Shown here: positions 2 to 26,621 of the stretch, piece by piece
Layout: the number at the start of each line of letters is the position of its first letter
Numbering within the stretch: the stretch's first letter is position 1
Source: Fusobacterium sp. JB019
Lineage (GTDB): Bacteria; Fusobacteriota; Fusobacteriia; Fusobacteriales; Fusobacteriaceae
Length of the DNA: 41,340 nt
Assembly: GCA_030673965.1 (NCBI GenBank)
Contig: JAUTCN010000001.1
Span: forward strand, 1 to 41,340
Reading direction: 5' to 3'
Made by a program: the position numbers and the translations under genes
The notes under the pieces: model-generated
What the model was told of the DNA's origin: nothing
The model's database searches: none
The model's input: the letters and a program-made list of their open reading frames with translations, nothing else

Positions 2-100
2 TTAATCCATGCAATCGCAATGGAACAAGGATTAAGATTCGCTATCAGAGAAGGTGGAAGAACAGTTGCTTCAGGAGTTGTTTCTGAAATAATCAAATAA
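2..100 (+). CDS. tuf: Elongation factor Tu, C-terminal end (partial)
   Basis: The reading frame entering the window encodes 32 residues and a TAA stop. The sequence [20 protein letters not shown] followed by [12 protein letters not shown] is the conserved C-terminal beta-barrel end of EF-Tu, the GTPase that delivers aminoacyl-tRNA to the ribosome. The start lies outside the window. It is followed directly by a rho-independent terminator, so it closes its operon. The identification is firm even though only the tail is visible. Confidence 0.93.
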
Positions 101-24469: not shown

Positions 24470-25663
24470 TTATTTTACTTTTCCTAAAGCTTGCTCTAAA
24501 TCAGCAATTATATCTTCAACATTTTCTAATCCTAAAGATAATCTTACTAACCCTTCTGGAATTCCTGCTGCTGCTAGTTCTTCTTTAGTATAAGTCGAAT
24601 GAGTCATTGATGCTGGATGTTGAATTAAAGTTTCTGTATCTCCTAATGAAACAGCTAATCCAAACATTTCAACATTATTTAATAATGTTTTTCCTGCTTC
24701 AAATCCACCTGTTAATTCAAATGATAACATACCACCAAAATTTTTCATTTGTTTTTTTGCAATTTCATGTCCTTCATGAGATTCTAGTCCTGGATAATAT
24801 ACTTTTGAAATTTTAGGATGCGCTTCTAACCATTTTGCTACTGTCATTGCATTTTCACAATGTCTTTGCATTCTTACTTCAAATGTTTTTAATCCTCTTA
24901 CTATTAAATTTGCTTCTGCTGGTCCCAATACAGAACCTGTCATATCTTTAATTCCTACTAATTTTATTTGATTAATTACATCTTTTGGTCCCACTGCAAA
25001 ACCTGCAACTACGTCTCCATGTCCATTTATATATTTTGTTGCTGAATGAACGACTATATCTGCCCCTAAAGTTAGTGGATTTTGATTATATGGAGAAGCA
25101 AATGTATTATCTACTATTACACTTGTATATGGGTTTTCATGAGCTATTTTAGATAATGCTTCTATATCTGCTATTTTTAAATTGGGATTTGCTGGTGTTT
25201 CCAAATAAACTACTCTAGTATTTTCTTTCATAGCTGCCTTTACTGCATCTAAATCTCCTGTATTTAAAAATGTTACTTCGATTCCAAATCTAGTTAATCC
25301 ATGATTTAGTAATGCAAATGTACACCCATATAATGTTGTATCTGCTATTACATGATCTCCTGCTTTTAATAATGTCCATAAAGTTGAAGAGATTGCACCC
25401 ATTCCTGCTGCCATTCCTGCTGCTGCTTCTCCATGTTCTAAAGCTGCTACTTTTCTTTCTGCTAAGGCTACTGTAGGATTTCCTAATCTACTATAAATAT
25501 ACCCTTCTTCTTTTCCTGAAAATCTAGCTGCTCCTTGCTCTGTAGAATCAAATACAAAAGTAGATGTTTGAAATACAGGTGCCGATAAAGATCCAAATGG
25601 ATTTTTTTCATTTCCTGCATGAATTGCTATTGTTCCTATTCCTTTTCCTTTTAAATCGTGCAT
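24470..25663 (-). CDS. mgl: Methionine gamma-lyase
   Basis: A 397-residue PLP enzyme of the Cys/Met metabolism family that splits methionine into methanethiol, 2-oxobutyrate and ammonia. The PLP lysine is Lys210 in SATKYINGHGDVV; TSTFVFDS, YSRLGNPT and the tail HPASMTHSTYTKEE fit the family. Cys114 in LYGCTFALL occupies the position of Pseudomonas Cys116, the hallmark that separates methionine gamma-lyase from cystathionine enzymes. Volatile-sulfur production from methionine is a Fusobacterium trait. Codon use is even, suggesting high expression. It has its own promoter and two palindromic upstream sites. Confidence 0.93.
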   Translation of the reverse strand: MHDLKGKGIGTIAIHAGNEKNPFGSLSAPVFQTSTFVFDSTEQGAARFSGKEEGYIYSRLGNPTVALAERKVAALEHGEAAAGMAAGMGAISSTLWTLLKAGDHVIADTTLYGCTFALLNHGLTRFGIEVTFLNTGDLDAVKAAMKENTRVVYLETPANPNLKIADIEALSKIAHENPYTSVIVDNTFASPYNQNPLTLGADIVVHSATKYINGHGDVVAGFAVGPKDVINQIKLVGIKDMTGSVLGPAEANLIVRGLKTFEVRMQRHCENAMTVAKWLEAHPKISKVYYPGLESHEGHEIAKKQMKNFGGMLSFELTGGFEAGKTLLNNVEMFGLAVSLGDTETLIQHPASMTHSTYTKEELAAAGIPEGLVRLSLGLENVEDIIADLEQALGKVK

Positions 25664-25755: not shown

Positions 25756-25784
25756 TTTATAATACTTTTTTGTTTTTTTGTCAA
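25756..25784 (-). promoter_or_regulatory. mgl promoter
   Basis: On the minus strand TTGACA (25784-25779), a 17-base spacer and TATAAA (25761-25756) form a near-consensus promoter. It predicts a leader of about 86 bases before the mgl start, with AAGGGGG as ribosome site. Confidence 0.75.
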
Positions 25785-25788
25785 ATCC

Positions 25789-25806
25789 AACTGTTATATA
25801 ACAGTT
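25789..25806. promoter_or_regulatory. Palindromic operator candidate 1 upstream of mgl
   Basis: AACTGTTATATAACAGTT is a perfect 18-bp palindrome, four bases upstream of the mgl -35. Its 12-bp core TGTTATATAACA recurs in the second site. The position near -48 would suit an activator, though a repressor is possible. Confidence 0.65.
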
Positions 25807-25852: not shown

Positions 25853-25882
25853 TTAAATAAGTGTTATATAACACTTATTTAA
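25853..25882. promoter_or_regulatory. Palindromic operator candidate 2 upstream of mgl
   Basis: A perfect 30-bp palindrome (half-site TTAAATAAGTGTTAT) with the same TGTTATATAACA core as site 1. The two centres are 70 bp apart. No T-run follows on either strand, so it is not a terminator. Confidence 0.65.
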
Positions 25883-25885
25883 TAC

Positions 25886-25921
25886 AAAAAGAGTCAATCT
25901 TAATATTCTAAGATTGACTCT
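25886..25921 (-). terminator. Terminator of the small transcription unit
   Basis: A perfect 13-bp stem (AGAGTCAATCTTA / TAAGATTGACTCT) with a 6-base loop, followed on the minus strand by TTTTTG. It ends a transcript starting near 26,144, not the ATP synthase operon, which has its own terminator. Confidence 0.85.
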
Positions 25922-25961
25922 AAAATAATTTGTTTACTTATGTTTTTCTACATAAATGAAA

Positions 25962-26114
25962 TTATACACATTTATCAAATAGATTTATACATAAAAGATT
26001 AAATATATTTTTTAAACTACCTAGAATTTTATTTGTAATATTTATTGATATTATTATGTTTATTATTAATATGCTTATTATAATTATTATAAATAATCTA
26101 TTTAGTAGTAACAT
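25962..26114 (-). CDS. Putative 50-residue hydrophobic small protein
   Basis: ATG at 26114-26112, TAA at 25964-25962. Residues 4-26 (LNRLFIIIIISILIINIIIS and onward) would form one transmembrane helix; the C-terminal half (NKILGSLKNIFNLLCINLFD) is amphipathic. AAGGAG lies 11 bases upstream, slightly far. It sits in a unit with a perfect promoter and a strong terminator, so transcription is well supported; translation is not. Thirteen of 16 isoleucine codons are ATA, unlike the nearby expressed genes, which may mean slow translation or a non-coding RNA. Its size resembles type I toxins or small membrane proteins, but I recognise no family. Confidence 0.45.
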   Translation of the reverse strand: MLLLNRLFIIIIISILIINIIISINITNKILGSLKNIFNLLCINLFDKCV

Positions 26115-26150
26115 TATATATTCTTCTCCTTCTCTTTTTTATTTTAAGAG

Positions 26151-26179
26151 ATTATATCTGATTCTAATAAAATTGTCAA
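26151..26179 (-). promoter_or_regulatory. Perfect consensus promoter of the small transcription unit
   Basis: On the minus strand TTGACA (26179-26174), exactly 17 bases, then TATAAT (26156-26151). It follows immediately after the atpC terminator and predicts a start near 26,144, hence a transcript of about 260 bases. Confidence 0.88.
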
Positions 26180-26182
26180 GAA

Positions 26183-26215
26183 AAAATAAAAAAAGATGCA
26201 TATACATCTTTTTTT
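26183..26215 (-). terminator. Terminator of the ATP synthase operon
   Basis: AAAAAAAGATG pairs with CATCTTTTTTT around CATATA, followed by T-rich sequence on the minus strand. The stem begins at the atpC stop codon. Confidence 0.8.
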
Positions 26216-26621
26216 ACAATAATCTTTCTGCAACTCTTACTTTTACTAAAGCATCTTGCAAAGATTTTTGAGCCATCACTATTTGTTTATCCTCATTTAA
26301 TTTTTCTAATTTTTTCTGCGCAAACTCTAGTTCTTTCTTAGCTTGCAATAAATCTATTTCATCTGGTAACATAGCTTCATCTACTATAATTAAAACTTTT
26401 TCTTTATTAATTTCTAAAAAACCTCCAGAAATATAATAACTTATTTCATCAGATTTATTAAGTCTTATTTTTATTTCATCAGAATATAATCCTGCTACAA
26501 AAGGAGCATGATTAGGTAAAATACCCATATTTCCTTCTGTAGTCTTAAGTAAAATATATTCTACTTCTTTTTCAAATTTTATTCCTAAAGGAGTTATAAT
26601 TTCTAATTTAAAGCTGTTCAT
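26214..26621 (-). CDS. atpC: ATP synthase F1 epsilon subunit
   Basis: A 135-residue epsilon subunit, part of the central stalk that couples rotor to catalytic head and can inhibit ATP hydrolysis. FKLEIITPLGIKFEKEVEYILLKTTEGNMGILPNHAPFVAGL is the beta-sandwich; YYISGGFLEINKEKVLIIVDEA follows, then a helical C-terminal hairpin. Last gene of the operon, two bases after atpD, with AAAGGAGC upstream. Confidence 0.94.
   Translation of the reverse strand: MNSFKLEIITPLGIKFEKEVEYILLKTTEGNMGILPNHAPFVAGLYSDEIKIRLNKSDEISYYISGGFLEINKEKVLIIVDEAMLPDEIDLLQAKKELEFAQKKLEKLNEDKQIVMAQKSLQDALVKVRVAERLL

Follow-up and report, generated by a model that had tools for sequence, protein, structure and literature searches.

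A probable ribosome-mediated attenuator for branched-chain amino acids between atpC and mgl in Fusobacterium sp. JB019, with relatives upstream of ilvE

A minus-strand unit lies between atpC and mgl in the 41,340-nucleotide stretch of Fusobacterium sp. JB019 DNA that we analyzed (the window). We conclude that this unit is very probably a ribosome-mediated transcription attenuator for branched-chain amino acids (BCAA). Its parts, its family, the position of its relatives before ilvE, the covariation of its paired bases, the codon bias of its leader ORF and a folding switch were all established by computation.

RESULTS

The minus-strand unit and its neighbors

The original prediction had placed a TTGACA-17-TATAAT promoter, an AAGGAG sequence, a 50-codon ORF and a 13-bp terminator on the minus strand of this interval, and a letter-by-letter check found all four of them there. 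The leader promoter (26151..26179, minus strand) has its −35 element TTGACA at 26179-26174 and its −10 element TATAAT at 26156-26151, separated by a 17-base spacer. It is the sole 12/12 match within 2 kb and is also present in the paralog on contig 21 of the same genome (G000:C21) and in G002:C34. Perfect TTGACA-16..18-TATAAT sites number 45 in the 2.27-Mb genome, compared with 8 for a reversed control pattern, and both copies of the unit in this genome belong to those 45. The Shine-Dalgarno (SD) sequence AAGGAG (26126..26131, minus strand) forms the 5′ edge of what we call region 1, with the predicted partner AATCTTTT at 26000-25993. It precedes the leader ORF (25962..26114, minus strand), whose 50-residue peptide contains 27 Ile, Leu or Val residues and one hydrophobic stretch. 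Between the leader ORF and the structural gene sits a Rho-independent terminator (25886..25921, minus strand), in which the arms AGAGTCAATCTTA and TAAGATTGACTCT at 25921-25890 form 13 perfect pairs around the loop GAATAT, with a T run at 25890-25886.

The gene downstream of the leader is mgl (24470..25663, minus strand), identified as methionine gamma-lyase by NCBIfam NF004876 and TIGR01328, both above cut-off, and it is separated from the leader terminator by a gap of about 222 bases. It has its own promoter, TTGACA-17-TATAAA (25756..25784, minus strand; TTGACA at 25784-25779 and TATAAA at 25761-25756), and a similar sequence precedes mgl in G002 and G005, two other Fusobacterium species. On the other side, atpC is followed by a terminator at about 26183-26216, a near-perfect A-run/T-run hairpin. 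With this terminator and the mgl promoter both present in the sequence, the proposal of a separate transcription unit holds.

The atpC hairpin should also terminate transcription on the opposite strand. Two palindromes with the common core TGTTATATAACA lie upstream of mgl, at 25791-25804 and 25860-25875, the first of them just upstream of the mgl −35 element, and mgl of G002 and G005 is preceded at the corresponding position by a similar site, CTGTTATNNAACA. These palindromes are likely the operator of some regulator.

Copies of the unit and their genomic positions

A DNA search found a second copy of the unit in the window's own genome, on contig 21, with 75% identity. Across seven species of the genus, the window's included, DNA matches over most of the unit came from only one other species, the sister species G002, which has three copies; a covariance model (R1) likewise found exactly two copies in the window's genome and three in G002. 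A protein profile gave no further copies in 61 genomes of the family, bar one weak match with two internal stop codons. The homologous block spans the −35 box to the terminator. One G002 copy lies upstream of mgl, a second shares with the contig-21 copy its position at the 173-aa/cstA operon, and the third (G002_C5) follows an ABC transporter gene and lacks a promoter of its own. Conservation in related genomes had been proposed as a check on the unit, and the unit is kept whole at other places and in the sister species, which goes beyond chance. Gaps in the ORF among the copies are multiples of three, except for a 1-base shift in the G002 mgl copy; this +1 shift, in the last third of the ORF, alters the peptide but keeps the pairing bases. 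The closest pairs have a pN/pS of about 0.6.

The window's genome has a site that matches the ABC transporter copy of G002 but is without the ORF. This site (L109 about 1240-1290, against L019) keeps a terminator, GCAATCTTATGAAAATAAGGTTGC, that resembles the leader terminators, and the ORF may have been deleted here with the terminator left in place.

In both 173-aa/cstA copies, the leader T run is followed immediately by the SD and ATG start codon of the 173-aa gene. Since this leaves no room for a promoter after the T run, the 173-aa gene needs read-through of the leader. In G001, G003, G004 and G006, four further species of the genus, this 173-aa gene comes after ilvE, which encodes the branched-chain aminotransferase. 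Directly upstream of ilvE in all four, we found a promoter, an SD and a Leu/Ile/Val-rich ORF, of which MFKLLSIIFVISIINLIFMNIRSFDVQKINAKSCLV is an example, with a terminator a short distance ahead of the ilvE SD. Homology to the contig-21 copy is plain at the start of the ilvE leader, where ACTACTTAGCATAATATTTGTCATAAG corresponds to ACTACTAAGTATAATATTTATAATAAG. Because a homologous unit fronts ilvE in four species, we identify the unit as the ilvE leader; in these species, the downstream gene belongs to the metabolism of the same amino acids. The window's species and one sister species appear to have lost ilvE from this position, a direction of change judged from four species against two, and to have kept the original leader there before the 173-aa gene and cstA. 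The mgl-side copy is most likely a duplicate of that original leader, in this species pair.

Upstream of the leader in both species without ilvE at this place is a gene of 330 and 241 aa, respectively (L005:8060-9052 and L118:5479-6204), whose stop codon overlaps the −35 box of the leader; the 330-aa gene had no match in Pfam or NCBIfam. A second mgl-like gene of G002 (L050/L051, G002:C8:72908-74085) is split into two frames and is probably a frameshifted pseudogene or an assembly error.

These positions also bear on the suggestion that the ORF encodes a small membrane protein tied to ATP synthase. The window copy does adjoin atpC, but the other copies lie at ilvE, at the 173-aa/cstA operon and at the ABC transporter gene, with none near atp genes, and we give this idea a negligible probability.

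A mobile element or phage origin was considered and rejected, as there was no phage or viral-contig match and the plasmid matches were merely short, AT rich and unrelated. Matches to the core pattern of the unit in genomes and viral contigs were likewise unrelated, falling in Bacteroidota coding sequence and in a hairpin repeat of a Bacilli metagenome-assembled genome (MAG). This MAG, Lapin-028 bin55 (L061, L062, L065-L067, L070 and L072), carries many AT-rich hairpin repeats of the form ATATATATAATTCTAAGTAGTATGAAAAATATATATGG...CCATATATATAT, mostly at contig ends.

Codon bias of the leader ORFs

The original prediction had remarked on the high share of ATA among the isoleucine codons of the ORF as odd for an expressed protein. 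The bias itself stands, with ATA at 13 of 16 Ile codons compared with 337 of 968 in the 29 long ORFs of the window (Fisher p=0.0002); as an objection to a protein it loses its force, being what is expected of the regulatory codons of a leader peptide. CTA makes up 4 of the 10 Leu codons, compared with 8% (and 35% for ATA) in the 29 long ORFs. We then pooled nine leaders, namely the five copies of the species pair and the four ilvE leaders, which are related sequences, so that counts over them are not independent and covariation counts are inflated. ATA accounted for 93/115 Ile codons in this pool (337/968 in the 29 long ORFs), CTA plus CTG for 27/56 Leu codons (81/914) and GTC plus GTG for 12/24 Val codons (38/522). 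All nine leaders keep the SD and the open frame, and 39-54% of their residues are Ile, Leu or Val. The leaders thus cluster regulatory codons for the amino acids of the pathway that would be controlled, among them CUA, which has the regulatory role in the Salmonella leu attenuator (PMC1183508).

Exclusive RNA pairings and their covariation

In addition to the terminator, all nine leaders have two mutually exclusive pairings, 1:2 and 2:3, in which region 1 is the SD plus the first codons, region 2 is about codons 26-34, and region 3 is the left arm and loop of the terminator. In the window copy, the region 1 core is TACTAC (26105..26110, minus strand), within the Leu codons TTA CTA CTA (codons 2-4); all five copies in the species pair share it unchanged, and it is covered by the stalled ribosome in our folding model. 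Region 2, TTCTAGGTAGT (26016..26026, minus strand; codons 30-33), can partner either region 1 or region 3, and its antiterminator partner is the region 3 core CTTAGAA (25906..25912, minus strand).

Given the five copies and no prior knowledge, RNAalifold recovered the terminator and a helix in which the most conserved block of the ORF pairs with the SD, AUAUAU and codons 2-4. The SD helix and the terminator together contain 9 pairs with two-sided changes, and none of 500 shuffles matched their covariation score. Compensatory changes occur in the terminator among copies; covariation within the 1:2 (SD) hairpin alone is suggestive only, with 33 of 500 shuffles scoring as high. The 2:3 pairing occurs as UUCUAAG:CUUAGAA, UGUUAAG:CUUAACA and GCUAAG:CUUGGC. 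Across the nine leaders, 95% of its cells are paired and 6 cells have two-sided changes (UA to GC and CG to UA), and its covariation score was reached by 0 of 500 shuffles. The covarying region 3 bases sit in the loop, where they are dispensable to the terminator, so terminator function does not explain the 2:3 covariation. Region 2 lies at codons 26-32 in all nine leaders, and in eight of them no other part of the ORF pairs better with the terminator arm. At about −8 kcal/mol, the duplicates form a short antiterminator helix; the corresponding values for the ilvE leaders are −12 to −16. Unlike trp, the longer leaders have their region 2 far ahead of the stop codon, so that a ribosome halted there would not itself cover region 2.

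Coding signals, with a translated-looking ORF, and RNA structure are both present, and the original prediction is supported in part. A non-coding small RNA acting in trans, one of its suggestions, would fit an independently promoted and terminated transcript of about 260 bases that is structured (z −2.6), but the open frame with its SD is kept in all nine leaders, the ORF gaps are multiples of three except one, the units sit upstream of operons, and Rfam covariance models, including T-box and other cis-regulators, gave no match. We regard this as improbable, a leader-peptide attenuator for the same-strand downstream gene being the better explanation.

We judge equally slim the prospect that the unit is a type I toxin-antitoxin system, with a membrane-active peptide, an mRNA fold that hides the SD and a silencing antisense RNA. 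A short hydrophobic ORF in several copies, with its own promoter and terminator and an SD predicted to be hidden in a long hairpin, is what such a system would look like. An antisense scan of all copies, however, gave 9-10/12 promoter-like sites at no one place common to all, and no strong conserved antisense promoter was found. The homologous unit is the leader of ilvE, with relatives fronting ilvE or the 173-aa/cstA operon, and covariation between the terminator loop and the ORF would not be expected of a toxin. The C-terminal third of the peptide is frameshifted in one copy and varies freely between leaders. Searches of Pfam, PHROGs, NCBIfam and PADLOC assigned the peptide to no known family, toxin families included. 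SD sequestration as the sole function was also rejected, because the energy needed to open the SD is only modestly above that of synonymous permutations; the SD is kept just as part of region 1.

Folding with a stalled ribosome

We folded the leaders with a masked ribosome, using 120 synonymous-codon permutations of the ORFs as the control. Without a ribosome, the 2:3 probability in the nine leaders was about 0; placing the A site at codons 3-4 raised it to 0.44-0.97, and a ribosome at the stop codon gave 0-0.17, the pattern of a classic attenuator. The summed switch was 6.39, compared with 0.74 ± 0.55 (maximum, 3.30) in the permutations. The antiterminator is thus predicted to exclude both the terminator and the protector hairpin, most weakly in the window copy, where the 2:3 probability was 0.51 at codon 3 and 0.26 at codon 6 and where 21 of 120 shuffles did as well by a broader measure.

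This weak switch, together with mgl's own promoter and the gap between leader and gene, leaves room for a reading in which the duplicated attenuators beside mgl have ceased to act on it and survive as relics or as a free transcript about 260 bases long. The perfect promoter has nevertheless been kept, as has the unit before mgl in both species; the sister copy, before mgl in G002, has a strong switch (0.95), and the terminator is kept through compensatory changes. We consider loss of action on mgl possible but rather doubtful.

DISCUSSION

How the attenuator would work

For the attenuator that we favor, we infer ribosome stalling, read-through, sensing of leucine and/or isoleucine and control of mgl. 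RNA polymerase would start at about 26144, and a ribosome would translate the leader ORF, which is rich in the rare Leu and Ile codons CTA and ATA and has Leu codons in region 1 itself. Under free translation, or with no ribosome, region 2 would pair with region 1, the terminator would form, and an RNA of about 260 bases would result. If charged Leu- or Ile-tRNA were scarce, the ribosome would stall on the first Leu/Ile codons and cover region 1, leaving region 2 to pair with the terminator's left arm and loop, and transcription would continue. In the sister species that retain it, ilvE would be the gene switched on, with the 173-aa gene and cstA after it; in the species pair without ilvE at that place, the original leader precedes the latter two genes and the duplicate precedes mgl.

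2-Oxobutyrate is a precursor of isoleucine. Methionine gamma-lyase makes 2-oxobutyrate (PMC10878106), and mgl is tied to BCAA metabolism only through this product, which offers a plausible purpose for the duplicate and not evidence for it.

Comparison with known attenuators

Enteric leu and ilvGMEDA attenuators follow the same four-region logic (1:2, 2:3 and 3:4) as the leaders described here, but the present peptides are longer, with regulatory codons from their very beginning and on through the loop, the SD is part of region 1, and region 2 falls within the ORF, well ahead of its stop. Rare CUA codons are regulatory in the enteric leu attenuator, as here (PMC1183508). Rli60, the ribosome-mediated attenuator at ilv-leu in Listeria monocytogenes, shares a small-RNA-like transcript with a leader peptide and regulatory BCAA codons, mutually exclusive antiterminator and terminator, and a position before BCAA genes (PMC5864092). 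Rli60 is akin to the present leaders in function and has a peptide of 13 aa, compared with 36-54 aa here; it acts on the ilvD operon, whereas here the target would be ilvE-173aa-cstA, with a copy before mgl. The Leu/Ile-rich peptide of the Staphylococcus aureus ilv-leu attenuator shares a BCAA-rich ORF and proposed read-through on starvation (PMC5794164). Its terminator follows the ORF stop by about 50 bases, compared with 33-59 here, and its antiterminator is proposed to pair with the poly-U tail rather than with the left arm and loop (PMC5794164). From its sequence features, the unit most likely works like the Rli60, S. aureus and enteric attenuators. A literature search, with incomplete coverage of subscription papers, found no BCAA leader-peptide attenuator for Fusobacteria.

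Reading the unit as an attenuator accounts for both the apparently empty interval and the odd codon bias, and it makes a testable prediction about the control of ilvE and mgl. It would also be an unusual case in which one attenuator can be traced at its original place, once its cognate gene has been lost, and as duplicates beside new genes. We see an even balance for and against the idea that the BCAA attenuator is a portable cassette, whose copies, derived from the leader of the ilvE operon, reached mgl and, in the sister species, a third site, making the breakdown of methionine responsive to isoleucine/leucine starvation. If that were true, the production of methanethiol and 2-oxobutyrate would be tied to starvation for isoleucine or leucine.
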